This document shows, piece after piece, positions 11,668 to 31,484 of a stretch of 53,474 bases of DNA. The stretch's first letter is position 1; the number at the start of each line of letters is the position of its first letter. Below the pieces are notes generated by a model. That model was not told where the DNA came from. It saw only the letters and a program-made list of their open reading frames with translations, and searched no databases. The position numbers and the translations under genes were made by a program. Origin of the DNA: a virus; the IMG/VR virus record IMGVR_UViG_3300050139_000115, positions 1-53,474 of that record. One strand, 5' to 3'.

Positions 11668-11697
11668 ATTAAAGCATGCTTGAAACTCATTTGTCAA
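11668..11697 (-). promoter_or_regulatory. Leftward early promoter (PL-like)
   Basis: TTGACA (11697-11692), an 18-base spacer and TTTAAT (11673-11668) form a strong sigma70-type promoter reading left. The start point, about 7 bases on, coincides with the Cro-like ATG. Two operator copies cover the -35 and -10 boxes. Confidence 0.7.
11670..11683. promoter_or_regulatory. Operator copy 1
   Basis: TAAAGCATGCTTGA, a near-palindrome covering the -10 box of the leftward promoter. It is the exact reverse complement of the copy at 12450-12463. Confidence 0.65.
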
Positions 11698-11707
11698 GGA
11701 TGCTTGA
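11694..11707. promoter_or_regulatory. Operator copy 2
   Basis: TCAAGGATGCTTGA, a near-palindrome covering the -35 box of the leftward promoter, 24 bp from operator copy 1. Confidence 0.6.
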
Positions 11708-11732
11708 TGGCCGACGGAATACCCTTTGCGTC

Positions 11733-12080
11733 ATGATGTTACTGAGTGAGCGAGTGAAAGAGGCGATAGATGCCGCCGCGGACAACGGCCATACCGTTGC
11801 TCAAATTGCGAAGGCGTGCGGAATTAAACCTCAAGCCGTCTATCAATGGATGGATGGTGCCACTAAATCCATTGATGGCGAAAACCTGGTCGAGCTTGCC
11901 GAACTGTCCGGCTACCTTGCAATGTGGATAGTCAAGGAAAGGGGTCCAAAATCCGACACCAGATCAATGCAGCAGGCGGTCAAACTGATTAGACAAATGA
12001 CTCCGGAAAAGCAGGCAATCGCCGTTAAAATTATTGCTCCGCTTGTTGAACAGGACGGAGACAATGCAAAGGTCGGCTAA
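11733..12080 (+). CDS. CI-like repressor without a peptidase domain
   Basis: The 115-residue protein has an XRE-type HTH at about 6-50 (VKEAIDAAADNGHTVAQIAK, CGIKPQAVYQWMDG). There is no S24 self-cleavage domain, so induction by RecA-driven autocleavage is not expected. The C-terminal helices (VKLIRQMTPEKQAIAVKIIA) may dimerise. The gene lies between two promoters with the same operators, the place of cI in lambdoid phages. A second ATG follows directly (11736). Its own promoter is not obvious. Confidence 0.7.
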   Translation: MMLLSERVKEAIDAAADNGHTVAQIAKACGIKPQAVYQWMDGATKSIDGENLVELAELSGYLAMWIVKERGPKSDTRSMQQAVKLIRQMTPEKQAIAVKIIAPLVEQDGDNAKVG

Positions 12081-12465: not shown

Positions 12466-12503
12466 CTCCCATCAGCCGCACCCAGCGGACCAGGGAGCCC
12501 AGC

Positions 12504-13183: not shown

Positions 13184-13590
13184 ACACCCAAGCCCTCATT
13201 CAACTCTGGAACTGCACACAACGGCATCACGGCGCGTCGGGCGCCCGCGCCGCGGCCGGGGTGCTGCTCGGCCTATACAACGGCGATCGCTTCCCGTTCG
13301 ACCTCGTTGACCTGCGTGTGATGGACCAGAACTACCTGGACGCGGCGATAGAGGTCATTCGTTGCGATGCCACGCGCTGCCAACGGGAAGTGCACGAGTG
13401 GCTCAATCAATTAACCGGCCGTAGAGATTTTGGTATGCGGTTCGAACGCCTCGCTCACGAATACCGGCGCAAAGGCCGCTGCAAGCTAATCCATCTCGAT
13501 CCGGTCTCACCGGAGAACCTGTTGATTGAGCAGCCAGAGCCGATTGGTAAGCAGATCGTGCGCAGCAATCCAGCGCCGATGCTGTCATGA
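13180..13590 (+). CDS. Conserved hypothetical phage protein, DUF7673-like
   Basis: The 136-residue product has GVLLGLYNGDRFPFDLVDLR, a MDQNYLDAAIEVIRCD helix and TRCQREVHEWL, which I recall from a phage family labelled DUF7673. The role is unknown. It is part of the row of coupled small genes behind the rightward promoter. Confidence 0.65.
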   Translation: MNTQALIQLWNCTQRHHGASGARAAAGVLLGLYNGDRFPFDLVDLRVMDQNYLDAAIEVIRCDATRCQREVHEWLNQLTGRRDFGMRFERLAHEYRRKGRCKLIHLDPVSPENLLIEQPEPIGKQIVRSNPAPMLS

Positions 13591-13769
13591 GCGCCGCCGT
13601 GGAGCGCGCTATCCATGACGGCCTGAAGAACGCAATTCAGGCGATTGAGAAAGAGAACGGCATCCGGGTGCTGGATATTCACGTCGATTGGCGAGGAATA
13701 CGAGCGCTCGGCTCGCCTCCACAATTTTACGTTAACAGCATCCGAGCAACAACTGAGAGCGGAGATTGA
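13587..13769 (+). CDS. Hypothetical small protein
   Basis: A 60-residue protein with an N-terminal helix (ERAIHDGLKNAIQAIEKENG) and two short strands. The start overlaps the previous stop (ATGA). The segment VLDIHVDWRG is natural-looking, but no family is recognised. Confidence 0.55.
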   Translation: MSAAVERAIHDGLKNAIQAIEKENGIRVLDIHVDWRGIRALGSPPQFYVNSIRATTESGD

Positions 13770-13771
13770 CG

Positions 13772-14038
13772 ATGCAAGCCATCTGGAAATTTCCGCTCGG
13801 CTTGCAAGACAAAACGGTCATCACCATGCCGCGCAGCGCCCAGATCCTATGCGTGCAGACTCAGTTCAACAAGCCATGTCTCTGGGCGCTGATTCACGAT
13901 ATCGATGGACCGAAGGTTTCGCGCACGTACACCACCTACGGCACCGGCCACAAGCACGAAGCAATCACCGGACGTTACATCGGCACCTATCAACTCGACG
14001 GCGGCGCGCTCGTGTTTCATGTTTTCGAGGAGGCGTGA
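13772..14038 (+). CDS. Conserved hypothetical phage protein, DUF7352-like
   Basis: The 88-residue protein (IWKFPL, ITMPRSAQILCVQTQFNKPC, LWALIHDID, GTGHKHEAITGRYIGTYQ, LVFHVFE) is the all-beta phage family I know as DUF7352. ATG 13772 has GGAG 8 bases upstream and is preferred to TTG 13766. The function is unknown. The stop overlaps the next start (TGATG). Confidence 0.7.
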   Translation: MQAIWKFPLGLQDKTVITMPRSAQILCVQTQFNKPCLWALIHDIDGPKVSRTYTTYGTGHKHEAITGRYIGTYQLDGGALVFHVFEEA

Positions 14039-14340
14039 TGTGCTTACCCTCAATCGTTGATCTGCACCAAGCCGTCCCGGTGAGCGCCGCAGAACTGACG
14101 CGGCTGCGCCCGCTTGCTCAATTCGCCCTAGCCGTGCTTGAGGAAAGCCGTAACGAATTGGCGGACCTAGACGGCGGCTGGTTGCAGGACAAGGCCGAAG
14201 CCCTTGGCTTATTGGTGCGCGTTCCAGTAACAGAGCCATGCGGCGACGAATGTCGCTGCGCTGATTATGGCGCGTTTCCGCAGGACTGCCTGCGCTATTC
14301 GGATGAAGTGAGCGCGGCTCTAGGAAGGGCACAACCATGA
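14038..14340 (+). CDS. Hypothetical protein with cysteine cluster
   Basis: The 100-residue product has an N-terminal helical part and a cluster EPCGDECRCADYGAFPQDCL with four cysteines near the end, possibly metal-binding. It overlaps the next gene by 4 bases. I recall similar ends in other phage proteins but cannot name a family. Confidence 0.55.
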   Translation: MCLPSIVDLHQAVPVSAAELTRLRPLAQFALAVLEESRNELADLDGGWLQDKAEALGLLVRVPVTEPCGDECRCADYGAFPQDCLRYSDEVSAALGRAQP

Positions 14341-14567
14341 GTGCCCGCGCCGCCTATCCGAATGCCGCGATCTACCCGCACGGCGCTCTGACGGCGACGC
14401 AGCTCGAACAGCTTTGCCACGATCACAGACTGCGCCTGATGCAGACCACGCACGGATACCTTTACCTATCAACCGAGTCCACAGCAGCGCCTAAAGCGCT
14501 TCCCGTTCTCCTCCCTGTCGGGGACGTAGAGGGCGCTGCTGCTGGGCCACCATTAGAAGCGGCTTAA
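14337..14567 (+). CDS. Hypothetical protein
   Basis: A 76-residue protein with ATQLEQLCHDHRLRLMQTTH, GYLYLST in the middle and an alanine/proline-rich end. Start overlaps the previous stop (ATGA). No family recognised. Confidence 0.5.
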   Translation: MSARAAYPNAAIYPHGALTATQLEQLCHDHRLRLMQTTHGYLYLSTESTAAPKALPVLLPVGDVEGAAAGPPLEAA

Positions 14568-14762
14568 ATGGAACGCTACGCAAACAAGCGAATGATGTTC
14601 CGCCGCGGCGGGCGGTTCTCCAAGCCACCAACATTGGCCCAACTTGGCTATCCGGTAGCCACGGGACAAATGACCTGCGTATGTGGGCACAAGTTCTATC
14701 CGATCCTGATAACGGGGTACTGCCCTAAATGCGGATCAAGCGAAAAACAGGAGGCAGCATGA
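14568..14762 (+). CDS. Small zinc-ribbon-like protein
   Basis: This 64-residue protein has C-x-C (TCVCGHKF) and C-x2-C (YCPKCGSS) knuckles 13 residues apart, typical of a zinc ribbon. The N-terminus is basic (ERYANKRMMFRRGGRF). It starts directly after the previous stop. Likely a small nucleic-acid-binding or adaptor protein. Confidence 0.6.
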   Translation: MERYANKRMMFRRGGRFSKPPTLAQLGYPVATGQMTCVCGHKFYPILITGYCPKCGSSEKQEAA

Positions 14763-14881
14763 CCCACATCATCAGCAACGACTCGCCCAAGGAACGCCAC
14801 ATAGCCGCGCACCCCGCTGACTACATCGTCGGCAGCTTCCTCGTCGCCGTAGTGATCCTAGCGTTGCTCGGCTACATCTAG
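14759..14881 (+). CDS. Forty-residue single-span membrane protein
   Basis: The ATG overlaps the zinc-ribbon stop by 4 bases, with AGGAGG close upstream. The product has a polar N-terminal half and a C-terminal membrane segment (YIVGSFLVAVVILALLGYI). Function unknown; small phage membrane proteins of this kind can act in host takeover. Confidence 0.55.
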   Translation: MTHIISNDSPKERHIAAHPADYIVGSFLVAVVILALLGYI

Positions 14882-14892
14882 GAGACAACAAC

Positions 14893-15117
14893 ATGATCCG
14901 CCTTTTCTTCTCTCTCACCATCCACCTGGTCCTGCAATGGAACGCCCGCGTGAACGCCGCAGCACAGCGCCACGCAGCCGCGCACGCTGAGGAAGATATG
15001 CTCGCTTACCGCGCCGGCATCCCGAGGGCCGACGAATCCGCCCAGCATTGGGAATCGCGCGTGCGCGAAATCAAGACTGAACTACGGGCACGGAAACTTG
15101 CGAGGTTATTCGGATGA
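14893..15117 (+). CDS. Hypothetical small protein
   Basis: A 74-residue protein with a hydrophobic start (MIRLFFSLTIHLVLQW) and a charged helical remainder. GGAG lies 9 bases before the ATG. Possibly membrane-associated. No family recognised. Confidence 0.5.
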   Translation: MIRLFFSLTIHLVLQWNARVNAAAQRHAAAHAEEDMLAYRAGIPRADESAQHWESRVREIKTELRARKLARLFG

Positions 15118-15323
15118 ACACCACCGCCTCGCTCGATCTTCCGCTCGACATTCCCGTGAAGCCCCACGACGATCCGGAGCCGCGCGCGGTGTGGCAGACC
15201 ATCTTCGCGCCGACACGCCCGCACGTCACGTTCGAACAGGCGATGCGCGACCCAATCCTCGCCCACAGTATCACCCAGGTCTCGCTCAAGCGCGCACGGC
15301 GCCTCGCCAAGGCCGGCAAATGA
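15114..15323 (+). CDS. Hypothetical small protein
   Basis: A 69-residue protein with a proline-rich N-terminus (LDLPLDIPVKPHDDPEP) and a basic end (LKRARRLAKAGK). Coupled on both sides by 4-base overlaps. No family recognised. Confidence 0.5.
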   Translation: MNTTASLDLPLDIPVKPHDDPEPRAVWQTIFAPTRPHVTFEQAMRDPILAHSITQVSLKRARRLAKAGK

Positions 15324-15727
15324 TCCTCATCGGGTTGGCTGGCCCGCCAAGCGCAGGCAGGAGCACCGTCGCCATGCGCCTGAGCCATGGCCACAGTTTC
15401 CAGCGACTGCTGTTTCGCGGCCCCAACCTGGAACGCGAGGAAACCTGGCGGCAGCAGTATGGCGAGCGCTTTGAATTTCACCGCGCGCGAAAAACGCCTG
15501 GCGTCGTCCTCAACGTGCAATCCGACAAAGAGGCGGCATTCATCCGCGACCAGGGCGGCCAGGTTTGGCACCTGCAGCGCTTAGGCTATCTGACGCGCGC
15601 GGGCGATACCTACAAAGGCATCCTTCCGCAAGCCGCCGATCGCGGTCTGCTGAACGACGGCCCGATCGCGGCGCTCTACAACCGCGTCGACAGACTGCTC
15701 GACGACTTGGCCGACGCGCGCGGCTAA
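15320..15727 (+). CDS. P-loop nucleoside monophosphate kinase-like protein
   Basis: The 135-residue protein opens with MILIGLAGPPSAGRSTVA, a Walker A loop in place and context like phage deoxynucleotide monophosphate kinases, but with Arg in the position of the catalytic Lys. The later parts are short compared with true dNMP kinases (about 200 or more residues). It may be a degenerate kinase with a binding role. It sits before the ParB-like and MazG-like genes. Confidence 0.5.
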   Translation: MILIGLAGPPSAGRSTVAMRLSHGHSFQRLLFRGPNLEREETWRQQYGERFEFHRARKTPGVVLNVQSDKEAAFIRDQGGQVWHLQRLGYLTRAGDTYKGILPQAADRGLLNDGPIAALYNRVDRLLDDLADARG

Positions 15728-15745
15728 TCACTTTCAGGAGAACCC

Positions 15746-17521
15746 ATGAACGCACCCGCCACCGCCACCACGCCAGACAGCGCCTATCAATTCATCATGC
15801 TCGACGACATCGAGCCATCGAACACGCACATCCAACAGTTGCGCAGGGCTCGGTTCGACACCGCAGCCATGGCCGAGCTGGTCGCGACCGTCGAGGCGCA
15901 CGGCGTGCTGCAGCCGATTCTGGTGCGGCCGAAATACACCGTGCGCGTGCACCATGCCGGCGAGGGCCTCCACTGGTACGCCGAGATACTGGGATTTTCC
16001 GGCAATTGGAATACGCAGGGCACCGGCCATAAGACGCAGGCCGAGGCCGAGGCCGAAGGGGCACAGCTCTCCGCGCAACACGAGATCGTAGCTGGCGAAC
16101 GCCGTTGGCTCGCCGCGCGCGCGGCGAAGCTCGCGCAGATCCCCGCCGTGGTGCGCGATCTCACCGACCTCCAGGTGCTCGAATTCCAGTTGATTGAAAA
16201 TTTACAGCAGGAAGGCTTGCACCCGCTAGAGGAGGCCGAAGGCTTTGCCGACCTGATGAAGTTGCAAGAGGTAACCGCCGAAACCATCGCCGAAACTATC
16301 GGCCGCAGCAAGAGCCACGTGCACGCCCGTTTGAAGCTGCTCGAACTCATCCCCGCAGCCCGTGAAGCGTTCAACAGCGGCTTGATCGATTTATCCAAAG
16401 CGCAGCGCATCGCGCGTATTCCGGTGCCAAAGCTGCAAGCAAAGGCGCTCAAGCTCGCGGCGACTCCCGACTACCGCGGCGACGCCATTTCGTTTAGAGA
16501 TTTCACGCACGGTCTCGAAAACAATAAATTTGTGATCGCGCTGAAACTCGCCACATTCAGCTTACGCGACTCTACCCTACCCGGCGGCGATTGCATTGGG
16601 TGCCCCAAACGCACGGGCAATCTGGGTGATTTGTTCACCGACATCAAAGACCCCGACGTATGCACCGACCCCGGTTGTTTCGATAAGAAGACCACAGCCC
16701 ATCAAAAGCACCTGCGCGCCCAGGCCGATGCAACTGGCCGCACCATCATCAGCGGCGACGCGGCCAAGGCGATCATGGGCCATCAAGATCAACTGCGCGG
16801 TTACATCGACCTCGATGCCATATCAAACGAAGAATTCCCCGAGGCGGAACCGGAAACGCCAGAGGACGGCGCAAAGACGCCAGAGTGGTTTGCCTGGGAA
16901 AAGCGCTTTGACGCCTTCACCCCGCGCACCTATCGCCAGATCCTCGGTGACATCGAAGCCGCCGTGCTGCTCGACACCGGCAAAACGCTACGTGAGATCC
17001 TCGCCATCGCCGATGCGCGCAAACTCCTCAAGCCGCACGGCATCACTTTGCCAGACTGGATTGACCGCAAACCAGAACCATCCGACCCAGCCGAACGAAA
17101 AGAAGAGGAAGAAAAGCAGCGCGAGCGCCAAGCGACCGAGGAAGAATTCCGCCGCGCATTGCTCGCGCAGATTCACGCCAAGTGGAAGGGACCGCTAAAA
17201 CGCGAGGACCTCATTGCGCTTGCCCGCTGGCTGCTGGAGACCACCGACACCACCGCGCTTGAACAAACGTGCTACGGCGGCAAGGAAATCAATCCCGAGA
17301 AAATGACCGAGGCCGAACTGATCCGCCTATTGGCGGAATTCACCGTGACGCAGACGATCGAGTACCTGAGCAACAATCCCGCCCCACTCCTCAATCTGGC
17401 CAAGCGCTGCAAGATTGATCCGGCCAAGGTGAAGAAGGACCTTGCTTCAGCGGCGAAGGCGAAAGCAAATCCGGCGCCGGCGAAGGCGCGGAGCACCAAG
17501 AAAAAGGCGGTGAAGAAATGA
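15746..17521 (+). CDS. Large ParB/RepB/Spo0J-like protein
   Basis: The 591-residue product has ParB boxes in order: HGVLQPILVRP, then EIVAGERRWLAA, LIENLQQEGLHPLEEAEGF and an HTH around IAETIGRSKSHVHARLKLL. About 50 residues (HAGEGLHWYAEILGF region) are inserted between the first two boxes. Four cysteines (CIGCP, CTDPGC) suggest a metal site, and the end is lysine/alanine-rich. CTP-dependent DNA clamping is known for ParB; here a plasmid-like prophage role or DNA-binding regulator is possible. AGGAG precedes the ATG. Confidence 0.8.
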   Translation: MNAPATATTPDSAYQFIMLDDIEPSNTHIQQLRRARFDTAAMAELVATVEAHGVLQPILVRPKYTVRVHHAGEGLHWYAEILGFSGNWNTQGTGHKTQAEAEAEGAQLSAQHEIVAGERRWLAARAAKLAQIPAVVRDLTDLQVLEFQLIENLQQEGLHPLEEAEGFADLMKLQEVTAETIAETIGRSKSHVHARLKLLELIPAAREAFNSGLIDLSKAQRIARIPVPKLQAKALKLAATPDYRGDAISFRDFTHGLENNKFVIALKLATFSLRDSTLPGGDCIGCPKRTGNLGDLFTDIKDPDVCTDPGCFDKKTTAHQKHLRAQADATGRTIISGDAAKAIMGHQDQLRGYIDLDAISNEEFPEAEPETPEDGAKTPEWFAWEKRFDAFTPRTYRQILGDIEAAVLLDTGKTLREILAIADARKLLKPHGITLPDWIDRKPEPSDPAERKEEEEKQRERQATEEEFRRALLAQIHAKWKGPLKREDLIALARWLLETTDTTALEQTCYGGKEINPEKMTEAELIRLLAEFTVTQTIEYLSNNPAPLLNLAKRCKIDPAKVKKDLASAAKAKANPAPAKARSTKKKAVKK

Positions 17522-17847
17522 GTGCCGCACCGGAGAGTTTCGATCTGATCGCCCACCTGCGCCGGCAGTGTGAATTTTCCCTTCACACTTTCGGACCCGG
17601 CGAGCGCACGGACGGATTGATCGATCACATCATCAAAGAGCTTGACGAGATCGAGTCGGACCCGACCGACCTCTCCGAGTGGATCGATGTCGTGATTCTC
17701 GCCCTGGATGGCGCGTGGCGAATCGGAGCGACGCCGGAGCAAATCGTCGCCGCTCTGGTAGCAAAGCAGACCAAGAACGAGGCGCGCGAATGGCCTGACT
17801 GGCGCACCGCTGCACCAGGGAAAGCCATCGAGCACGTTGAAGACTGA
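17518..17847 (+). CDS. DUF550, MazG-like dATP/dGTP pyrophosphohydrolase
   Basis: FSLHTFGPGERTDGLIDHII, then KELDEIESDPTDLSEWIDVV, AWRIG and KQTKNEAREWPDWR match the DUF550 pattern of phage MazG-like nucleotide pyrophosphohydrolases. EIE and E-W-I-D supply the metal-binding acids. It probably trims purine deoxynucleotides or alarmone-like signals in the infected cell. It overlaps the ParB-like stop by 4 bases. Confidence 0.75.
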   Translation: MSAAPESFDLIAHLRRQCEFSLHTFGPGERTDGLIDHIIKELDEIESDPTDLSEWIDVVILALDGAWRIGATPEQIVAALVAKQTKNEAREWPDWRTAAPGKAIEHVED

Positions 17848-17866
17848 CCCACAACCAGGAGCCCAC

Positions 17867-18481
17867 ATGAACGCACCAGAATCAAAGACCGAAGTTCCCA
17901 CAATCATCGGCACACCCTACGGCGGCGGTTTCTTCTACGGCCGCATCATCGACGGCGATCATCTGTTCGCACTGATCGTCGCGCCTAAGGACGGCGGCGA
18001 GCATGACGACACGCCGTGGAATAAGTCAAGGAAGGCTGTTGCCGGCGCCGGCAGCTACTTCGACGGCATGGCCAACACACGCGCGATGGCTGAGGCAGGC
18101 AGCGGACTCGCCCAGTGGGCGCTGGGCCTGAAACTCAACGGCGAGAGCGACTGGTATCTGCCCAGCCGTGACGAGCTGGAGATCCTGTACCGCAACCTCA
18201 AGCCTACCACCCACGAGAACTACGAGTACCGCAACGGCGACAATCCGAGCAGCGTGCCGGCAGGGTATCCATACACCGCCAAGCTGCCAGCGCAAACCGC
18301 TGCCGAGCACTTCCGTACTGGCGGCCCCGAGGCATTCGAGGACGCCTGGTATTGGACCTCAACGCAGTGCGCCCCGGACGACGACTATGCCTGGGCGCAG
18401 GATTTCCTCAACGGCTTCCAGAGCAACTACCGCAAGGACGACGACTTCAGGGCTCGGGCGGTCCGCAGATTGCCCATTTAG
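17867..18481 (+). CDS. DGR1 target protein 1, DUF1566-like with variable C-terminus
   Basis: The 204-residue protein has a DUF1566/C-type-lectin-like fold: SDWYLPSRDELEILYRNLKP, then DAWYWTSTQ and the closing RARAVRRLPI. The variable repeat VR1 (18363-18467) encodes the C-terminal 35 residues. Compared with the template repeat it differs at 13 bases, every one an A in the template. No signal peptide. AGGAG is 6 bases before ATG 17867. It lies in the early or accessory half, far from virion genes, so it is not an obvious receptor-binding protein. Confidence 0.85.
   Translation: MNAPESKTEVPTIIGTPYGGGFFYGRIIDGDHLFALIVAPKDGGEHDDTPWNKSRKAVAGAGSYFDGMANTRAMAEAGSGLAQWALGLKLNGESDWYLPSRDELEILYRNLKPTTHENYEYRNGDNPSSVPAGYPYTAKLPAQTAAEHFRTGGPEAFEDAWYWTSTQCAPDDDYAWAQDFLNGFQSNYRKDDDFRARAVRRLPI
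18363..18467 (+). repeat. DGR1 variable repeat 1 (VR1)
   Basis: 105 bases aligned without gaps to the template repeat at 19437-19541. Thirteen differences, all at template A (to G, T or C). Directly after it VR1 reads GATTG where the template reads AATGA, the usual break at the initiation of mutagenic homology. Confidence 0.95.
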
Positions 18482-18509
18482 TCCATTCAACAATTTCAGG
18501 GGTGAACCG

Positions 18510-19010
18510 ATGAAAAACGCGAAAGCACAATGGATCAAAGAAAACCTCAAGGAAGGCGAGGAATACAGCGGCCTAATTCTTGGCAAGGGCGGCGAGTCGG
18601 ATTACCACCTGATCCTGCGGCCCGGCGAGGCAGAATCCGTCACTCACGAACAAGCCAAGGAATGGGCCAAGAAAGCCGGCGGTGAACTTCCGACTCGCCG
18701 CGACCAGGCGCTGCTCTATGCCAACCTGAAGGAGCAGTTCCAGCCGCGCTGGTACTGGTCTGGCGCGCAGTACGCCCCGGACGACGGCTATGCCTGGGCG
18801 CAGGATTTCGGCTACGGCACCCAGGGCTTCTACCCCAAGGACGACTACTACAGGGCTCGGGCGGTCCGCAGATTGACCCTTCAACAATTTAACCTTTGCT
18901 TTTCAGCATGGCCATTCACACACAATTGCCGATCTACAAGGTTGCGTACAACCTCGCCGATCTTGCCGTCGATCTCATCAAGAACATGCCGCGTGAAGTC
19001 AAAGCGGTGA
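18510..19010 (+). CDS. DGR1 target protein 2, DUF1566-like with variable C-terminus
   Basis: The first 70 residues (LKEGEEYSGLILGKGGESDY region) differ from target 1, then ELPTRRDQALLYANLKEQF and PRWYWSGAQ give the same lectin-like end. VR2 (18766-18870) has 15 differences from the template, all at template A. Unlike target 1 the frame has no stop after RAVRRL and runs 46 residues further, 103 bases into the avd gene. AGGGG precedes the ATG. The diversified residues lie on the predicted ligand surface of this fold. Confidence 0.85.
   Translation: MKNAKAQWIKENLKEGEEYSGLILGKGGESDYHLILRPGEAESVTHEQAKEWAKKAGGELPTRRDQALLYANLKEQFQPRWYWSGAQYAPDDGYAWAQDFGYGTQGFYPKDDYYRARAVRRLTLQQFNLCFSAWPFTHNCRSTRLRTTSPILPSISSRTCRVKSKR
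18766..18870 (+). repeat. DGR1 variable repeat 2 (VR2)
   Basis: 105 bases aligned without gaps to the template repeat at 19437-19541; 15 differences, all at template A. It is followed by GATTG as in VR1, not by the template AATGA. Confidence 0.95.
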
Positions 19011-19264
19011 TCGGCGGCGAGCTTCGGGACGAGTGTCTGCGGCTGTTGGTCCTGATCTTCAGGGCCAACGTCGCCACGGACAAACGCGCGCACCTGACTC
19101 AGTTGATCGAACGCCAGCAAGTGGTCGAGTTGCTTCTCCGCCTGTCGCGGGATAAGCGCTTCATTTCGACCGGGCAGTATGCGCGGGCGGTTCAGTTGAC
19201 CGAGAGCATCGGCAAGCAAGCCAATGGATGGCGCAAAGCTTCCGCATCGTCGCCTGCCACATGA
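18908..19264 (+). CDS. avd: DGR1 accessory variability protein (Avd-like four-helix bundle)
   Basis: A 118-residue, all-helical basic protein (LPIYKVAYNLADLAVDLIKN, DECLRLLVLIFRANVATDKR, GQYARAVQLTESIGKQANGW). Length, composition and position between the targets and the template repeat fit Avd, which binds the reverse transcriptase and the template RNA. There is no clear ribosome site; the ATG lies inside the end of target gene 2, so translation may be coupled. It differs clearly from the Avd of the second DGR. Confidence 0.85.
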   Translation: MAIHTQLPIYKVAYNLADLAVDLIKNMPREVKAVIGGELRDECLRLLVLIFRANVATDKRAHLTQLIERQQVVELLLRLSRDKRFISTGQYARAVQLTESIGKQANGWRKASASSPAT

Positions 19265-19331
19265 AGGTCAAGGCTTTCATGTCCGTGCGATATTCAATCT
19301 GGTCGTGCCGCTTCCTCACGAGGGAACCGAT

Positions 19332-20666
19332 ATGCGCGTAGTGGACACCCACGGCAGCAGCCGGGACGGGTCCGGCGCAGTTTCCCCGCTGATCGGCGCG
19401 AGCCTTCGCCGGGGTGACGTAGATAGCACGAACGACCGCAGTACGCCCCGAACAACGACTATGCCTGGGCGCAGAATTTCAACAACGGCAACCAGAACAA
19501 CTACCACAAGGACAACAACTACAGGGCTCGGGCGGTCCGCAAATGAATACGATGCTGGCCATGCTGATTTTTCTTTTGAGGAATTGGTAGTCGCGTACCT
19601 GGACTGCCGCAAGAACAAGCGCAACACCCACACCGCCGTCGCGTTCGAGCAGGACTTAGAGCGCAACCTGTCCCGGCTTCACAGCGACCTGGTTGACGAG
19701 TCCTACACGCCCGGCCGCTCGATCTGCTTCATTGTCACCAGGCCAAAGGCCCGCGAAGTCTGGGCGGCCGACTTCCGCGATCGCATCGTCCACCATCTGC
19801 TATACAACCGGATCGCGCCACGGTTCTATGCCAGCTTCATCGCTGACACCTGCGCGTGCATCCCAGGCCGCGGCACGCTCTTTGCCGCCCAACGACTCGA
19901 AGCGAAGATCCGGAGCATCACGCAAAACTGGACGCGGCCGGCGTGGTATCTGAAATGTGACATCGCCAATTTCTTCGTCAGTATCGATAAGCGCGTGGTG
20001 CGCGAGCAGCTCGCCGCGCGCGTCACCGAATCGTGGTGGATGGCGCTGGCGGAGACGGTGCTGTTTCACGATCCACGGCCGGGCGCGTCAATACAGAGCA
20101 CACCTGCATTGATGGCACGGGTGCCGCCGCATAAAAGCTTGCTGAACCAGGTCGAGAATCTTGGCCTCCCCATCGGCAATCTATCGTCGCAGTTTTTCGC
20201 CAACGTCTATCTTGATGCCTTGGACCAGCATTGCAAGCACCGCGTGCGTGCGCTGCACTACATCCGCTACGTGGACGACTTCATCCTGCTCCACGAATCA
20301 CCGCAATGGCTGAATACGGCGCACGCCGACATCGAGGCTTTCCTGCCGCGCGAACTTGGCGTCAGGCTGAATCCATCAAAAACCATCTTGCAGCCGGTCG
20401 ATCGCGGCGTGGACTTCGTTGGCCATGTGATCAAGCCCCACAGCCGCACTGTTCGGCGGCGGACCGTCCGCGTAGCCATCGAGCGCATCAGCCGAATGGA
20501 AGGCGAGGACTTATATCGATCGGCGAACAGCTATTTCGGCTTGTTGCGCCAGTCACCGCAGAGCCACACCGACCGAGCGCGCCTGGGCAACGTCCTGCGT
20601 AGCCGCGGGCGTTCGATCAACAAGCAGTTCACGCAAACTTATCGGACGGCTCGAAATGACGATTAA
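19332..20666 (+). CDS. DGR1 reverse transcriptase
   Basis: The conserved enzyme begins near FSFEELVVAYLDC (about base 19568) and carries RSICFIVTRPKAREVWAADF, KCDIANFFVSID, LPIGNLSSQFFANVYLDALD and IRYVDDFILL. YVDD holds the catalytic aspartates, and the IGNLSSQ motif is of the DGR type. No ATG, GTG or TTG with a ribosome site exists between the TR and the domain, so ATG 19332 (AGGGA upstream) is given; this start makes the TR part of the coding frame. A start within the TR (ATG 19461) is also possible. Confidence 0.85.
   Translation: MRVVDTHGSSRDGSGAVSPLIGASLRRGDVDSTNDRSTPRTTTMPGRRISTTATRTTTTRTTTTGLGRSANEYDAGHADFSFEELVVAYLDCRKNKRNTHTAVAFEQDLERNLSRLHSDLVDESYTPGRSICFIVTRPKAREVWAADFRDRIVHHLLYNRIAPRFYASFIADTCACIPGRGTLFAAQRLEAKIRSITQNWTRPAWYLKCDIANFFVSIDKRVVREQLAARVTESWWMALAETVLFHDPRPGASIQSTPALMARVPPHKSLLNQVENLGLPIGNLSSQFFANVYLDALDQHCKHRVRALHYIRYVDDFILLHESPQWLNTAHADIEAFLPRELGVRLNPSKTILQPVDRGVDFVGHVIKPHSRTVRRRTVRVAIERISRMEGEDLYRSANSYFGLLRQSPQSHTDRARLGNVLRSRGRSINKQFTQTYRTARNDD
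19437..19541 (+). repeat. DGR1 template repeat (TR)
   Basis: 105-base template with ten Asn (AAY) codons in the frame matching the targets, the usual design for A-specific mutagenesis without stops. It shares invariant bases with both VRs and ends GGGCGGTCCGCA. It follows avd by 172 bases and ends only about 26 bases before the conserved start of the reverse transcriptase. Confidence 0.95.
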
Positions 20667-21168
20667 GCCTGTCCGTTTTTCGCTTGACGACGCGCAGACC
20701 GCGGCCGGTGGGTTTTTCAATTGCGGGCCAGCAGCATTGTGCGCCGTCGCTGATCTACTGCCGGATGAGGCGGTGTCCAAGCTGCGCGGTTTCGAGCGAA
20801 AGCACTACACCAATCCCTCGATGATGCAGCAGGCCCTTGGCGATCTCGGCATCAAATTTCAGCGCGTCTATGAATGCCTCGGGCTCGGCATTGCGCGCAG
20901 TCCGCTTTATCCAACTTTCGGCCTTGTCCGGGTGCAGTGGGGCGGCCCGTGGACGAAACCTGGCGTTCCGGTGGCCGCCAGATACCGGCATACACATTGG
21001 ATCGCCGCCAGCGATGAAATGCGCTTCGACGTTAACGCGATGTGCGTTGGCGGCTGGTTGCCGCGCGCCGAGTGGGAAACGCAGCTTGTGCCGTGGCTGC
21101 TGAAGGAATGTGAGCCGAAGGAAAACGGCGAATGGTGGCCAACTCATTGTTGGGAAATTTCGAGGTGA
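20656..21168 (+). CDS. Conserved phage protein, possible papain-like cysteine peptidase
   Basis: The 170-residue protein has FNCGPAALCAVADLLPDE near the N-terminus, YRHTHWIAASDEMRFDVNAM in the middle and LVPWLLKECEPKENGEWWPT near the end. Cys in NCGPAAL, His in HTHWI and Asp in FDVN are in the order of a papain-like triad. I recall this family from other phages as uncharacterised. It overlaps the reverse transcriptase stop by 11 bases, so it may belong to the DGR1 transcript. Confidence 0.55.
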   Translation: MTIKPVRFSLDDAQTAAGGFFNCGPAALCAVADLLPDEAVSKLRGFERKHYTNPSMMQQALGDLGIKFQRVYECLGLGIARSPLYPTFGLVRVQWGGPWTKPGVPVAARYRHTHWIAASDEMRFDVNAMCVGGWLPRAEWETQLVPWLLKECEPKENGEWWPTHCWEISR

Positions 21169-21175
21169 CCAATCC

Positions 21176-21499
21176 ATGACCGCCCCCGTCCGCGTCCAGC
21201 TCTCGCGCAAGAAAGGCTTCCGGCTGCCGCCGAACACCGCCAACGTGGCACGGCCGTCGCAGTGGGGCAACCCGATCAAGGTTGGTGGCACGTTGCGCGT
21301 AGAAGCCGATGGCGACATGGTTGAAGCCGCCATCACGCCGGCGATCGCCGTCGAACTCTTCCGCGAATACATCGCCGGCGCGCTGCGCAAACACCCGGCA
21401 CTGCTCGAACCGCTGCGCGGCAAGCGCCTAGCCTGCTGGTGCGCGCTCGATGCGCCATGCCACGCCGACGTATTGCTCCAGTTGGCCAATAAACCATGA
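21176..21499 (+). CDS. DUF4326 protein
   Basis: VRVQLSRKKGFRLPPNTANV, then WGNPIKVG and GKRLACWCALDAPCHADVLL are the marks of DUF4326, a small phage family with conserved cysteines near the C-terminus. The biochemical role is unknown. AGGTGA lies about 7 bases before the ATG. Its stop overlaps the next gene by 4 bases. Confidence 0.8.
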   Translation: MTAPVRVQLSRKKGFRLPPNTANVARPSQWGNPIKVGGTLRVEADGDMVEAAITPAIAVELFREYIAGALRKHPALLEPLRGKRLACWCALDAPCHADVLLQLANKP

Positions 21500-21762
21500 A
21501 CCGGGCTGGCCCCATCGAAAACGTCGCCTACAAATCAGAGGCCGAGATCCGCGCCTATTTGCGCGGCCTCGATGATGGTGGTTTGATCGCCCAAGAAATG
21601 ACGCAGAAGGGCGCCATGCACGCCATCCGCTTCATCCTCCAGACCCCAGGCGATGCGCGCGAACTCGCCAAGCAGATGCGCGACAACCTGCGCTGGCACG
21701 CGATGATCATCAGCGAAGAATGTGCGCGCCGCGGCCTGCCCGTTGTCGCGGAGAACGGCTAA
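21496..21762 (+). CDS. Hypothetical protein
   Basis: An 88-residue helical protein (YKSEAEIRAYLRGLDDGGLI, ARELAKQMRDNLRWHAMIIS). Coupled to DUF4326 by a 4-base overlap and followed by the DUF4224 gene. No family recognised. Confidence 0.6.
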   Translation: MNRAGPIENVAYKSEAEIRAYLRGLDDGGLIAQEMTQKGAMHAIRFILQTPGDARELAKQMRDNLRWHAMIISEECARRGLPVVAENG

Positions 21763-21765
21763 GCC

Positions 21766-21975
21766 ATGTTTCTCACCGCCGCCGAACTGCGCGAACTGAC
21801 CGGCCGCGCCCGCCGCAAGGATCAACTCGTCTGGCTCAAAGCCAAGGGCTACAAGCACGAAGTGAACGCGCTCGGCAGGATCATCGTCGCCCGTGCCCAT
21901 GTAGATCACCGACTTGGTTCAGGCCAGCCGCCGGCGCCGGAGCCGGATTTCTCGGTGTTCCACAAAGCGGCGTAA
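21766..21975 (+). CDS. DUF4224 protein, possible excisionase-like partner of the integrase
   Basis: MFLTAAELRELTGRARRKDQ, then LVWLKAKGYKHEVNALGRII is the DUF4224 pattern, a small DNA-binding-like module found next to phage integrases. The position 12 bases before the integrase suggests a directionality factor, which is inference from context. Confidence 0.75.
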   Translation: MFLTAAELRELTGRARRKDQLVWLKAKGYKHEVNALGRIIVARAHVDHRLGSGQPPAPEPDFSVFHKAA

Positions 21976-21986
21976 GATAGCCGCCC

Positions 21987-22991
21987 ATGTCCCGCCGCCG
22001 GCTTACCGACCTTCACCTGCCCGTCAGGGTGTATTTCAAGAACGGCAGTTATCGCTATGTTGATCCCGCTAACAAATGGCACACCCTGGGCCGCGCATGG
22101 GACAGGGAGGCGCGCGCAGAGTTCGACCGGCTATCCAGGGGCACCGCACCACCGCAGACCGTATCAGCCCTCCTTGACGCCTTTCTGAAGCATCGCGAAG
22201 ACGAAGTGCGCGCCGGGACGAAGGCGATGCGCACCCTGGACGACAACGAGCAGGAAGCCAAGACGTTGCGCATGGTATTCGGGCAGATGCCGGTATCGAC
22301 GGTCAAGCGCCAGCACGTTGCCCGATATCTCCGGGAGCGCAACGACAAGGACGGCAAGCCGGCGCCAGTGCGCGCCAACCGCGAAGCTGCCCTCCTTTCC
22401 TCTGCCTTCGCCTGGGCGATGGGCCTGCGCGATTGGGACATCAACGAGAATCCATGCTACGGATGCCGGCGGAACACGGAGCGGCCGCGGCGCCGTTACA
22501 TTGAGACATCCGAGCTGGCAATATGGAAGCGCACCGCACCGGCAAGGCTCCGAGCGTTCGTGCTGTTGAAGCGCCTCACCGGATCGCGCCAAGGCGAGCT
22601 ACTCGCGCTCACGCGGGCGAGCATCACAGATCGAGGGCTTACGATCGGGATCTCCAAGACAGGACGAACCAAGATCGTGCGCTGGTCATGGGCGTTGCGT
22701 GTAACGATCGATGCGATCCTGAAGATCCACGGCAAAGTGCCGAAGATCGCGTTATTCCCGGCCAGGAACGGCGGAGCGTTGACCGGGCGAGGATTCAAAA
22801 GCGCATGGGCTCGGGCGATGGAGCCTTACCTTACGGCCGGCGGGGCGCGGTTCCGGGAGAACGACATCCGGGCGAAGACCGCGAGCGACATGAGCACGGC
22901 CGATGCGCAGCAACTGCTCGACCACGCGAGCCCATCGATCACGCGCCGCACCTACCAGCGCGCGCCGGTGAAGGTCAGGCCGTTGCGCTGA
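21987..22991 (+). CDS. int: Tyrosine integrase
   Basis: The 334-residue protein has an N-terminal arm-binding part, a core-binding helical part (about 56-150) and a catalytic domain with Arg201 (TGSRQGELLAL), Lys224 (SKTGRTK), Arg295 (NDIRAKTASD), His313 (LLDHASPS) and Tyr323 (RRTYQR). The first His of the HxxR box is Asn292. It should recombine attP, found 63 bases downstream, with a tRNA-His gene of the host. Confidence 0.95.
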   Translation: MSRRRLTDLHLPVRVYFKNGSYRYVDPANKWHTLGRAWDREARAEFDRLSRGTAPPQTVSALLDAFLKHREDEVRAGTKAMRTLDDNEQEAKTLRMVFGQMPVSTVKRQHVARYLRERNDKDGKPAPVRANREAALLSSAFAWAMGLRDWDINENPCYGCRRNTERPRRRYIETSELAIWKRTAPARLRAFVLLKRLTGSRQGELLALTRASITDRGLTIGISKTGRTKIVRWSWALRVTIDAILKIHGKVPKIALFPARNGGALTGRGFKSAWARAMEPYLTAGGARFRENDIRAKTASDMSTADAQQLLDHASPSITRRTYQRAPVKVRPLR

Positions 22992-23024
22992 TTGTCTAAT
23001 ATCCAAAATAGATTTTAGACAATC
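22990..23024. repeat. Ten-base inverted repeat behind int
   Basis: GATTGTCTAA and TTAGACAATC are exact reverse complements separated by 15 bases. No T-tract follows, so it is more likely an arm-type site for integrase or DUF4224 protein than a terminator. Confidence 0.5.
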
Positions 23025-23053
23025 GCGCTTTCGACTCTTCTAACCCCTTGATT

Positions 23054-23098
23054 TGGGGTGGCTGATGGGGCTCGAACCCACGACAACCGGAATCACAA
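23054..23098 (-). other. attP: attP core: 3' half of a tRNA-His gene
   Basis: Read on the - strand, 45 bases match the end of a proteobacterial tRNA-His from the anticodon loop (TTGTGAT, GTG anticodon) through the T arm (GTTCGAGCC) to the CCCA end. The match to the typical gene stops at 23098. No complete tRNA is present. Such partial tRNA identity next to int restores the host tRNA after integration. The 188 bases from 23099 to 23286 show no gene or clear signal. Confidence 0.85.
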
Positions 23099-23286
23099 AC
23101 CAAGCGACTTTTGCTGATTTTTAACTAGAAAACAGGAAAGTGTCAAAATCGAGCAATCGGCCGCAATCCGGGCGATTCTAGCCCCTTTCCCGCTGCCGTA
23201 CCCTACCACCCCACCCTAAGCGAACGCACGCGCCCTACCCCTGATCCAAAGGCGCCCGGCTAGAACGTAGCGCCACCCCGTAAACG

Positions 23287-26204: not shown

Positions 26205-26210
26205 TCTTTT

Positions 26211-27595: not shown

Positions 27596-28053
27596 CACAG
27601 ACCCAGCTTCGCTTTCTCTGCGCGCCCCCACGTGCGCACGGCCTCGACGTGCGCGCCGAAAGCCACCAAAGCATCACGCTCCCCCGCTTCGAACGTGTAC
27701 GCCCCAAGCGCTACGCCCACACCAATCCGAGCAAAATACTGCTCATCTTCGAGGCTATAGCGCGCTCGAATCTGCTCCTGCATCCGGGACGAGATCAGTG
27801 CGACATGCGGGCTCGCCGCCTTGATCGCGTCGCGCAGCGCGTCGGTGAGCGTCACCGGCGCCACGTTTGCCGCGATCTCTTGCGGCTGCTCGGCAGGCAG
27901 TGCGGCCCCGTCTGGCAGGGCGACATAGGTAATGCCCTCGACGGTGGCCAGTTCGGTGCCCAGACGCTGGCGCGTCGTTGGGTCTTCAGGCAGCCGCAGC
28001 TCGCGGGTGATCTGCTCGTCGATATGCTTGCGGTAGCCAATGATGGAGGGCAT
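27595..28053 (-). CDS. Hypothetical protein behind DGR2
   Basis: The 152-residue protein starts at ATG 28053 with AAGGAG 7 bases upstream (MPSIIGYRKHIDEQITRELR). The C-terminal region ARIGVGVALGAYTFEAGERD, then AFGAHVEAVRTWGRAEKAKL is conserved-looking. It overlaps the 3' end of the DGR2 reverse transcriptase gene by 68 bases. The place after tail-fibre genes suggests a tail or fibre accessory role. Confidence 0.6.
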   Translation of the reverse strand: MPSIIGYRKHIDEQITRELRLPEDPTTRQRLGTELATVEGITYVALPDGAALPAEQPQEIAANVAPVTLTDALRDAIKAASPHVALISSRMQEQIRARYSLEDEQYFARIGVGVALGAYTFEAGERDALVAFGAHVEAVRTWGRAEKAKLGL

Positions 28054-29002
28054 GGTTGTGCTCCTTGAGATAACGCAGCATGTGCTGCAATGAATGGGTG
28101 CGGCGCGCATGGCCGAGCACTGAAACCGTGCTCTCCATTTCGCCGCGCTTGACGGACTGGCGGAAGGTATAAAGGCTATGCCGGCGCACGAAGCGCTTGC
28201 TGATCCAGGTGCGGTAGCCGACGAAGTTCATGCCGCGCTTCACCCGCGCCAGGGTAGACTTCGACAGCTCGAGATGAAGGCCGGCGATGAACTCCACGAT
28301 CCGCGCCTTGCAGATCAGTAGTGCCTCGCGCGTCAAACCGAACAGCACGAAGTCGTCCACATAGCGGCAGTAGCGCTTGATGTGCAGAACGCGCTTGATG
28401 AAGTGATCGAGCGGGTTGAGGTAGATCAGTGCGTAGAGTTGCGAAAGCAGGTTGCCGATTGGAATGCCAACCGGCTCGCCGTGGTCCGAGAACAGCATCA
28501 TCAGATCCACGAATCGCCGGTCCTTGATCTTTCGTTCGATCAGGCCGCGAAGAATCTTCCGATCGATACGATAGAAGAACTTTCGGATGTCGAGCTTCAA
28601 CGTGTAGCTGCCAGGCGGGCAGGCTTGCAGAGCCTCCTGCGCGTAGTCAGCGGCCTTGTGCGTGCCATAACCGACGCGGCATGCAAACGATTGATCGATG
28701 AAGCCGCGGTCGAAGATCGGCCCGGCCACGGCATAGATGGCATGCTGCACCACCAGGTCGCGGAAGGCGGGAGCATAGATGCGCCGCGGCTTCGGTTCGT
28801 AGACCATGAAACTATAGTACGGGCGCGGCTTGTAGCTGCCGTCTGCCAGCTCTCGGTGCAGTGCGTCCATATTGGCGGCCAGGCGCTTCTCGAAGTTGAA
28901 ACACGCACGCTTGCCGTGCTTATGTCTCGCCGCGGCGTGGAAGGCCAACCGCAGCGCCTCCGGTGTGAAGGCGGATTCGAACAGATAACCGAAGCGCTTC
29001 AT
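27986..29002 (-). CDS. DGR2 reverse transcriptase
   Basis: The 338-residue enzyme shows YSFMVYEPKPRRIYAPAFRD, LKLDIRKFFYRID, VGIPIGNLLSQLYALIYLNP and RYCRYVDDFVLFG. YVDD is the catalytic motif and the IGNLLSQ motif 4 is of DGR type. GGAG is 8 bases before ATG 29002. The sequence is clearly divergent from the DGR1 enzyme (different motif surroundings and length), so the two DGRs are not recent copies of each other. Confidence 0.95.
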   Translation of the reverse strand: MKRFGYLFESAFTPEALRLAFHAAARHKHGKRACFNFEKRLAANMDALHRELADGSYKPRPYYSFMVYEPKPRRIYAPAFRDLVVQHAIYAVAGPIFDRGFIDQSFACRVGYGTHKAADYAQEALQACPPGSYTLKLDIRKFFYRIDRKILRGLIERKIKDRRFVDLMMLFSDHGEPVGIPIGNLLSQLYALIYLNPLDHFIKRVLHIKRYCRYVDDFVLFGLTREALLICKARIVEFIAGLHLELSKSTLARVKRGMNFVGYRTWISKRFVRRHSLYTFRQSVKRGEMESTVSVLGHARRTHSLQHMLRYLKEHNHALHHWLPQAYRRADHPRAAAA

Positions 29003-29159
29003 TACCGGAACTCCGCTTGACGTTCGAGACGGCATGCCGCCCTACCAGAAAAGCGCCGGCACACCGATTTCGCCGTGACTATCATGGCGCTAATCACGCG
29101 CCGGAAAGCGTCTCCCTTGATTCCACTTCGACCCTGCAGCCCGTGAGGTGAAATCGAGT

Positions 29160-29274
29160 CCGCGCGAAACCCCACGTTGTTGTTGGAGTTGCTACGCACA
29201 TTGTTGAGATTGAAATACCAGACCCCGGCGTTCGACGAGTTGTTCCAGTTGCCGCCAGAGATCGGGCACATGTC
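29160..29274 (-). repeat. DGR2 template repeat (TR)
   Basis: 115 bases aligned without gaps to the variable repeat at 29715-29829. It contains eleven AAY codons in the frame of the target. It lies between avd (overlap 2 bases) and the reverse transcriptase, the order known from Bordetella phage BPP-1. Confidence 0.95.
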
Positions 29275-29683
29275 AAGACGCTTCCCGTTTTTCGAGCTGA
29301 TGTTCGGCGACGATCCAGCCGCCGAGCATCCTGCCTAATTCGTCCACCAGCCGCGAGAGCGCGAGATACCGATGCTCGCCCAACGCGGCCGGAGATTTGT
29401 CCACCTTCTTCCCATCCTTGAACTCGAAATATCCGAGCGTGTACGCGAGGCGCACCAGCATGCGCAGTTGCTCGTGCCGGATGTCCAGATTCGTCAGGCT
29501 GGTTTTCTTGTGATAGCGCTTCTGCGCTTCGACGATGAAACCATAGACCTCGTAGGCCGCGCGCCGGATTTCGAGCGCGAGACCGTACTTTTCATGCTTC
29601 GGGAAGTGATTCAGATGCACGTTCATCAGCTTCGCGAATTCCATGAATTTCTGATCCAGTTTGGCTTCGTCGTGTAGCCCCAT
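29273..29683 (-). CDS. avd: DGR2 accessory variability protein (Avd)
   Basis: The 136-residue helical basic protein (KYGLALEIRRAAYEVYGFIV, HEQLRMLVRLAYTLGYFEF, RLVDELGRMLGGWIVAEHQL) closely follows the pattern of Bordetella Avd, whose last helix also reads as a GRILGSWI-like motif. It should form a pentamer binding the reverse transcriptase and template RNA. ATG 29683 is 17 bases after the target gene stop. Confidence 0.9.
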   Translation of the reverse strand: MGLHDEAKLDQKFMEFAKLMNVHLNHFPKHEKYGLALEIRRAAYEVYGFIVEAQKRYHKKTSLTNLDIRHEQLRMLVRLAYTLGYFEFKDGKKVDKSPAALGEHRYLALSRLVDELGRMLGGWIVAEHQLEKREAS

Positions 29684-29700
29684 CGCTATCGCTCGGGGCC

Positions 29701-31050
29701 TCAGAGATACAAGGCCGCGCGAAACCCCACGCTGTAGGCGGCGTTGCCACGCACATCGTAGAGACTGAAATCCCAGACCCCGGCGCTCGACGAGGCGTTC
29801 CAGTAGCCGCCAGAGAGCGGGCACATGTCTGCCACACGATAATCGTAGAAGGCATCATTGCCGAAAGGGTTGGTGCCACCAACCCCGCCAACCAGGGGGC
29901 CACCAACCCCGGTCCATTGCCAGGCGAGTCCGCTGGTGGCCTCGCTGAACACCTGCGCGGCATTGCCGTAAAGCTTGAGACTGGCACTGGCAAGCGCCGC
30001 ACCGTAGGTCGCGCCGAGATCGTCGTAGTTCGCCGCCAGTTGCCCGGCCGTGCCCCAGAGATCGAGCGCGCCACCAACGCCGGCCGTCATGTCCTTCATG
30101 CGCGCCGAAGTCTTGAGCACGTAGTAATGCGTCGCGGCCGTCTCAGAAACCAGGCCAAGATCGATGTTGTAGATGAGGCCATTCAAATCGGCGACGCCGC
30201 TGTTCTGGCCGTTGTGTGTTGTCCGACTGAACAGGTTCGCCGATCCCGTCTTTCCGCAGTTGGTAGCCGTGCCATCGTTCAGGTAGAGGATGGCGGCGTC
30301 CTGCGCATCGCCCAGGGCGTTGTTGTTGCAGCCCTTGGGGAAGTTATTCACGGCGTGATACCAGGCGCAGTAGGTGGTGGTGCTCGACGCCTGGCCGTGG
30401 GCGTAGGCCAAGAGCGCCAGCGCCGCGCGGATGAAGCGAGACGAGCAGAAGAAGTTCGCGCCGCGCGTCTTGGCCGCCGCGATCGCGCCGTAGTAGGCAT
30501 CGATGGGCGCTCCGGTGAGGGAGGCAAAGTTCGTGTTGGCGATGCCTCCACGCAGGGCACTTGCCAGCGGGATGCCGTTTTTCAGGCTGGACGCAATGCC
30601 GCCGTTGCGACTCGGCACGTATTTGTCCACGAAGAAACCGGCCTGAATCGCGCCACCATCGTAGAACGCCCGGTGCAGCGCATAGCCCGCGGCGTTGGCC
30701 GTGGCCACGTCGACGTAAGCGGAAAATGGCTGGATCGCCACCTGGTTCAACGTGACGCCATTCGCGCCGGTCCCCCATTTGTAATAGAAGGCGGGAATCC
30801 AGACCATGACCGAGCCATCGGAATACTGGTAATTCCCGTAGGCGTCGGCGAGTGGATTCTGGTAGTCGGACAAACCGCCCATGCCGGCTGGCAGCGGGCC
30901 GGGACAGACGCCGACACCGAATCCAGCCTGGCCGGCAATGCCGATGTTGTTGATGCCACCCAGGGCGCCCGAGCCGATGACGATGCCGGTGGGGAACTGC
31001 ACCGGCTGGCCGTCCTTGCCGGTAATTTTGCGAAGATTGAGGTTGCTCAC
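29701..31050 (-). CDS. DGR2 target: tail protein with variable C-type-lectin end
   Basis: The 449-residue protein starts at GTG 31050, overlapping the upstream stop (GTGA). Its C-terminal half has the pattern of DGR-diversified phage receptor-binding proteins; the last 43 residues (from MCPLSGGYWNAS to GFRAALYL) come from the variable repeat. It lies between tail genes and lysis genes, so a distal tail fibre or receptor-binding role is most likely. Glycine/alanine-rich regions in the middle suit a fibre. Confidence 0.85.
   Translation of the reverse strand: MSNLNLRKITGKDGQPVQFPTGIVIGSGALGGINNIGIAGQAGFGVGVCPGPLPAGMGGLSDYQNPLADAYGNYQYSDGSVMVWIPAFYYKWGTGANGVTLNQVAIQPFSAYVDVATANAAGYALHRAFYDGGAIQAGFFVDKYVPSRNGGIASSLKNGIPLASALRGGIANTNFASLTGAPIDAYYGAIAAAKTRGANFFCSSRFIRAALALLAYAHGQASSTTTYCAWYHAVNNFPKGCNNNALGDAQDAAILYLNDGTATNCGKTGSANLFSRTTHNGQNSGVADLNGLIYNIDLGLVSETAATHYYVLKTSARMKDMTAGVGGALDLWGTAGQLAANYDDLGATYGAALASASLKLYGNAAQVFSEATSGLAWQWTGVGGPLVGGVGGTNPFGNDAFYDYRVADMCPLSGGYWNASSSAGVWDFSLYDVRGNAAYSVGFRAALYL
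29715..29829 (-). repeat. DGR2 variable repeat (VR)
   Basis: 115 bases aligned to the template at 29160-29274 with 15 differences: 13 at template A, and two T-to-G changes (TAT to GAT and TCC to GCC). The repeat ends GTTTCGCGCGG; beyond it template and VR differ. Confidence 0.95.
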
Positions 31051-31484
31051 AGAACGCTCCAATTTGAGTTGTCGGCTAGGGTCACTTCTACGCCGTCGCC
31101 AATGGTTAAAGGGCCGGCCGAATAGGCGTTATAGCCGGATGGTATGGTTACGTCGGCAAGTAAAGTCGTAGGGTTCATCCGCACCGCCGGATTGAGATCC
31201 GGATTCGCGGCAAGGGCCGCAGTCCATGCAGCCTGAGCAGCGACGCTGGCAGCGGCAGCGGCGATGGCATTGGCGGTCGCATTGGCAAGTCCGGCATTCA
31301 ATGCGGACTGCGCTAGGACGCCGGCAGATGTGGCCAATGACTGCTTGGCGTTCACATCGACTTGCAAGGCGTTCGCTTCGGTGACGAACGTCGGTAGTGC
31401 AGCCAAGAATGTATCTGCACGCGCCGCAAACGTGGTTGGGTCGATCGTGCTGGGCGGAGTCGGCAGCGGAGTGATACCAGGCAT
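31047..31484 (-). CDS. Tail fibre-associated protein
   Basis: The 145-residue protein has an alanine-rich helical region (ALNAGLANATANAIAAAAAS) and an end SAGPLTIGDGVEVTLADNSN, WSVL, a beta pattern common at the ends of phage tail fibre or baseplate proteins. It is coupled to the DGR2 target by GTGA, which suggests the two work together in the distal tail. Confidence 0.6.
   Translation of the reverse strand: MPGITPLPTPPSTIDPTTFAARADTFLAALPTFVTEANALQVDVNAKQSLATSAGVLAQSALNAGLANATANAIAAAAASVAAQAAWTAALAANPDLNPAVRMNPTTLLADVTIPSGYNAYSAGPLTIGDGVEVTLADNSNWSVL

Follow-up and report, generated by a model that had tools for sequence, protein, structure and literature searches.

Organization of the DGR1 cassette

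The window, by which we mean the whole 53,474-base virus record that was analysed, from a temperate phage, has a 127-nt repeat at each end and carries a complete, intact diversity-generating retroelement (DGR1) on its + strand at 17867-20666. Two target genes (T1 and T2) are followed by an Avd gene, a template repeat (TR) and a reverse transcriptase gene (RT1). A Megablast search with the first 25 kb of the record found no real relative among phages. The parts of DGR1 are listed below, with the VR mismatches counted over 108 nt.

17867..18481, +: T1, a diversified stand-alone lectin-fold protein of 204 aa (Lcl_C, PF07603, E 2e-12)
18363..18470, +: VR1 (14/14 mismatches to TR at template A)
18510..19010, +: T2, a second diversified lectin-fold protein of 166 aa, including a 44-aa read-through tail
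18766..18873, +: VR2 (16/16 mismatches to TR at template A)
18908..19264, +: Avd accessory protein (bAvd, PF22296, E 6.9e-14; PHROG "Avd protein of DGR", E 2.6e-32)
19248..19438, +: RT-15 structured RNA (Rfam RF03018; 167 bits against a gathering score of 82, E 5.6e-41)
19437..19544, +: TR of DGR1
19545..20666, +: RT1, the DGR reverse transcriptase (RVT_1, E 1e-16; phrog_1423, E 1e-115); the coordinates give the conserved part of a frame that is already open at 19224

The translation of RT1 contains the PIGNLSSQ and YVDD motifs, as a DGR-type reverse transcriptase. The first-pass annotation had counted 13 and 15 mismatches in 105 positions between the template and its two copies, all of them at template A, and our recount over TR 19437-19541 gave the same values for VR1 (13/13 at A) and VR2 (15/15 at A). 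Given 34 A residues in these 105 nt, the hypergeometric P values are 7e-8 and 3e-9, respectively, and a chance repeat as the origin of the TR/VR pairs is thus ruled out (P below 1e-7). One more A-to-G change, at 19542 and common to both VRs, lies just past the 105-nt comparison, and a direct comparison of VR1 with VR2 gives 13 differing sites, again all at template A. A residues occur in 22 of the 34 template codons, only one of which can become a stop codon, and from these codons about 10^19 protein variants are reachable per target. The Avd gene and the RT-15 RNA were absent from the earlier annotation.

That annotation had also described both targets as DUF1566-like and signal-less. Against Lcl_C/DUF1566 (PF07603), T1 scores 47.8 bits and exceeds the family cut-off of 34.9, whereas T2 stays below it (24.8 bits, E 2.8e-5), so that by profile the family assignment holds for T1 only. 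The predicted structure of T1 (pLDDT 94.5) has the C-terminal domain of Legionella Lcl as its top PDB match (Z 12.3, rmsd 3.1 over 123 residues). In the T2 model, residues 1-123 have a high pLDDT and the last 44 residues form a low-confidence tail; it matches the C-terminal domain of Bd2740 (Z 12.9) and Lcl (Z 12.7), and the predicted fold of T2 therefore agrees with an Lcl_C-type domain despite the sub-cut-off profile score. Foldseek found similar domains inside long tail proteins, and Mtd, the solved BPP-1 target, is absent among the structural matches listed, which is uninformative either way. The VRs lie at the C-terminal side of their lectin-fold targets, with T2 continuing for 44 aa beyond VR2, because the TAA stop codon of a relative (L003) reads CAA at the equivalent site here. 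The extension past the lost stop overlaps the Avd gene in a different frame (18870-19010).

No recognised domain besides the lectin fold was found in T1 or T2. A hydropathy scan of 51 T1 and 50 T2 family members revealed no evident signal peptide or transmembrane segment, in line with the signal-less description, and the small number of hydrophobic stretches that it flagged among T1 homologs match a conserved strand of the fold (ALIVAPK type). The framework is strongly conserved, with 8 invariant columns in the T1 family (51 sequences) and 13 in the T2 family, and the two are maintained as separate subfamilies across many genomes. In a comparison with the PADLOC anti-phage defence models, neither target matched a family.

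The RT-15 RNA adjoins the DGR1 template on its 5' side, and in all 38 of the large relative records searched it likewise lies just 5' of the template. This constancy suggests that the template RNA of the RT1 lineage probably includes RT-15, and the tie points to a role for an Rfam family for which, within a limited literature, we found no functional description. We also asked whether template RNA structure extends into the RT coding start by using third-position variability among 145 RTs, which showed no depression there, with only three usable columns in the first 30 codons.

Placement on the early strand and a second retroelement

DGR1 lies on the + strand, and the terminase, portal, protease and major head protein genes are all on the - strand. 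The features that define its surroundings are the following.

4933-5595, -: Q-like antiterminator
11676..12080, +: HTH repressor-like gene that opens the putative left operon (PHROG transcriptional regulator/repressor, best E 1.4e-9)
15746..17521, +: ParB-like protein, encoded upstream within the same closely packed genes (ParB_N, E 3e-21)
17518..17847, +: dATP/dGTP pyrophosphohydrolase, "MazG-like" (PF04447, E 1.3e-23), 20 nt upstream of T1
21987..22991, +: tyrosine integrase at the end of the putative left operon (phrog_1 integrase, E 1.6e-38)
51612-52313, -: terminase small subunit

The targets had been placed between a MazG-like enzyme and the integrase; the position stands, with the neighbour now specified as a PF04447 dATP/dGTP pyrophosphohydrolase. 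The ParB gene overlaps the pyrophosphohydrolase gene, T1 begins 20 nt after the latter, RT1 overlaps the next ORF, and small ORFs occupy the space between RT1 and the integrase. These overlaps, together with the lack of any promoter- or terminator-like site on the + strand at 15500-23100, fit a single operon, and the layout suggests that the run from repressor to integrase corresponds to a lambda-like left operon. The pyrophosphohydrolase raised the idea of a 2-aminoadenine phage, which we rejected, as the record holds no PurZ-like gene; the relatives' loci scanned contain no close match to this PF04447 protein.

Three repeats were observed elsewhere in the record. A 38-nt inverted repeat (11668-11705 / 12428-12465) flanks the repressor-like gene, a tandem 15-nt unit, GTCTGCCCGCTCGGT, occupies 26209-26328 at the end of ORF 26211-27047 (-), and imperfect repeats with an 84-nt spacing lie at 33635-34447 in an 1840-aa ORF (32692-38214, -) that has no PHROG match.

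The late gene block contains a second complete retroelement, DGR2 (27986-31062, -), with its own Avd, TR, RT and a 453-aa target.

29701..31062, -: T3, the DGR2 target, a tail-region protein of 453 aa that carries the VR (PHROG tail protein, E 2.9e-8)
29712..29829, -: VR of DGR2, 86% identical to its TR
29273..29683, -: Avd of DGR2 (bAvd, E 3.1e-18; PHROG Avd, E 9.9e-24)
29157..29274, -: TR of DGR2
27986..29002, -: RT2, a BPP-1-like DGR reverse transcriptase (RVT_1, E 1.1e-12)

Two of the TR/VR mismatches of DGR2 are at T and all others at A. RT2 is 61% identical to the RT of Pseudomonas phage Bise, its closest phage record, and 36.5% identical to the BPP-1 brt; in Bise, the RT and four-helix-bundle (Avd-type) genes follow tail/baseplate genes. 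The two elements are not a recent duplicate, as RT1 and RT2 are 29% identical and T1 and T3 have no meaningful alignment. When 54 large records with RT1 relatives were searched for RTs, only one, the IMG/VR relative L079, gave two matches; its second DGR (12394-16176, -), on the strand opposite to the early DGR, has an 11/11 A-directed VR that ends a 715-aa ORF. By this comparison, carrying both an early and a second DGR appears to be rare; the two phages that do so share just 67% identity between their RT1 proteins.

The RT1 lineage in databases and cultured phages

RT1 relatives were found in 397 stretches of IMG/VR and in 123 of GTDB genomes, the latter mainly from Burkholderiales, Rhodocyclales and Pseudomonas. 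Two to four VRs are present in 128 of the 161 loci examined, in which 98% of the TR/VR mismatches fall at template A; the VR scan is biased to A-mismatches, and a count over a fixed 90-nt core likewise gave 98%. The distance to the RT end is 3.2 kb or more for fifty VRs, and no VR was detected downstream of the RT in the 161 loci.

Three pairs of near-identical contigs (L044/L046, L012/L013 and L031/L032) differ at 14, 14 and 19 VR positions, respectively, with identical templates and a single VR differing per pair. All 47 differences are at template A, and across about 8.3 kb of sequence outside the VRs the three pairs together show a single difference. Differences confined to A against a near-zero background indicate recent mutagenic retrohoming, suggesting that the RT1 lineage is active, with the trace of this activity in the relatives and not in this phage.

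The early, non-tail placement of the lineage is strongly supported. The cassette and the terminase or portal lie on opposite strands in 24/24 records with a match to either of the latter (related records, and so not 24 independent observations), and the cultured relatives agree, which bears out the earlier claim that DGR1 lies outside the virion gene block. Lcl_C matches in 38 large records cluster around the RT, mostly within 10 kb, and of the 67 new loci with enough flank that came from a T1 profile search, 59 have an RT at most about 6 kb away and in every case on the strand of the T1 match. The first-pass annotation had named homologs fixed in tail modules as evidence against its reading: none were found among close relatives. 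More remote homologs of T1 (38% and 28%) are encoded close to tail or lysis genes in PMBT3 and QHHSV-1. In phage Medea1 (L084, 13313-15132), two lectin-fold genes of the family occur with no adjacent Avd or RT, followed by a gene that looks, by eye, like a NUMOD4-type endonuclease.

Neighbouring genes share no single function: among 135 proteins from 12 loci, integrases (6) and C5 methylases (5) lead, a superinfection-immunity domain is present, and most proteins have no known function. In the cultured phages Magia, Haboob and phPA-G, the cassette lies between the repressor and the integrase with recombination genes nearby, and in the two Pseudomonas phages among them DNA methyltransferases lie by the cassette. 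A Lar-like restriction-alleviation protein is also near it in phPA-G, and in Haboob a glycosyltransferase gene adjoins the repressor. LPPA56 and QDWS carry the cassette upstream of the integrase, in an integrase-proximal cluster that in QDWS adjoins a methylase and a host-nuclease inhibitor, and Cruim01, whose own annotation includes an RT-15 feature, carries it too. Each of these six phages has two or three A-directed VRs. The methyltransferase, Lar-like and host-nuclease inhibitor neighbours point to host takeover or counter-defence, as a tendency and not as a constant. The cassettes of Haboob and phPA-G are 97% identical over 3.16 kb and their flanking DNA mostly does not align, which indicates that the cassette moves as a module.

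Possible function and comparison with known systems

By analogy with established DGR biochemistry, from which the copying and replacement steps are taken, a transcript spanning the RT-15 RNA and TR would be copied by RT1 with Avd and mutated at template A, and the cDNA would replace the 3' end of T1 or T2, altering one face of a small lectin-fold domain; the outcome of these steps is visible by sequence comparison in the relatives. T1 and T2 would be free-standing binding domains, probably made early and cytoplasmic, while DGR2 would perform the classical variation of a tail protein. The early placement, the free-standing domains and the separate tail-region DGR argue for a role of DGR1 other than adsorption. 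Considering in addition that no signal and no virion-anchoring domain was found, we regard a function in the cell or in lysogeny as a reasonable inference, with the reservation that the placement of a gene does not prove where its protein acts. The most likely role, to which we give about an even chance, is the intracellular binding of a variable partner. Host anti-phage or competing-phage factors would be the most probable partners, and counter-defence or superinfection control is the function we favour.

A first alternative, which we consider unlikely but the best of the rivals, is that T1 and T2 serve as minor components of the virion or tail tip whose genes happen to lie out of place, with DGR1 varying adsorption as DGR2 would. 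The targets of studied phage DGRs are mostly receptor-binding tail proteins (PMC8144416), the Magia announcement proposes a host-range change (PMC7883833), Lcl_C-like domains are found in some long phage tail proteins, and the distant homologs of PMBT3 and QHHSV-1 have tail or lysis genes nearby. However, the cassette is opposite to the late genes in every one of the 24 records, the targets are single domains lacking a fibre or anchoring part, this genome already has a tail-region DGR, and close homologs accompany the early RT (59/67 loci) and not tail modules.

It is improbable, though conceivable, that the targets act in the lysogen as exported or membrane-associated lectins that change the cell surface, keep out other phages or help adhesion. 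Such a role would suit an integrase-proximal operon of temperate phages, the Haboob glycosyltransferase beside the repressor, the superinfection-immunity domain among the neighbours and the frequent occurrence of surface proteins among cellular DGR targets (PMC8144416), but the 101 aligned family members show no signal peptide or transmembrane segment by hydropathy, and the gene run, judged from its layout, resembles an early lytic operon. Least probable is a self-maintaining passenger that spreads between phages as a module with targets of little importance, as the Haboob/phPA-G cassette and its presence in many otherwise different phages might suggest, since the framework is strongly conserved down to the invariant columns of both families, the T1 and T2 subfamilies stay separate across many genomes, and Medea1 retains two targets with no neighbouring Avd/RT.

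Intracellular binding of a variable partner thus remains our preferred reading. Its broader form, which is tentative and to which we give somewhat less than an even chance, is that a widespread lineage of temperate phages maintains a dedicated, constantly mutated set of small cytosolic binders, antibody-like and acting within the bacterium, against variable host or rival-phage defences, in addition to and apart from the tail variation driven by DGRs. Receptor switching is the usual explanation for phage DGRs; if this reading is true, a large active lineage with early single-domain targets would mean that phages also use programmed hypervariation after entry. The cultured members Magia, Haboob, LPPA56 and QDWS make the question of function testable.

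DGR1 shares with the BPP-1 DGR (mtd-avd-TR-brt) the order target-Avd-TR-RT, adenine mutagenesis and a C-terminal VR in a C-type lectin fold, and DGR2 is of the BPP-1 kind. BPP-1 diversifies a tail fibre from a tail module on the late strand; here DGR2 lies on the late strand, whereas DGR1 lies opposite to the late genes and has two free-standing domains in an early operon as its targets. In addition, a recognised structured RNA (RT-15) lies 5' of the DGR1 TR and the RT frame directly follows it, whereas BPP-1 has a spacer 3' of its TR.

The idea of a phage DGR acting on a non-structural protein was published before, for Quimbyvirus, in which a second target of this kind was proposed (PMC8008677). 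Like those of DGR1, that target lies away from the structural module, on the other strand and near defence-related genes (PMC8008677); in Quimbyvirus, however, one DGR serves both a structural and a non-structural target, while here DGR1 serves early targets only and DGR2 the tail region. The announcement of Burkholderia phage Magia reported a DGR with short targets, genes 47 and 57 (PMC7883833), to which our analysis adds a third VR in gene 46. Magia resembles DGR1 in its RT lineage (64% identity), operon position and short lectin-fold targets; the announcement analysed neither position nor activity and noted no second DGR (PMC7883833). The DGR of Stenotrophomonas sp. SKA14, with six VRs, five in DUF1566 proteins, likewise combines several DUF1566 targets with a single DGR, and the available part of its description does not present it as an early phage operon (PMC6642488). 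In a large survey, viral DGRs of three clades act mostly on tail proteins (PMC8144416). Within the limited literature compared, the following appear to be new: the early placement throughout the lineage, a DGR dedicated to several targets beside another one for the tail region, the signs of activity in the sequences, and the link of the RT-15 RNA to the template.
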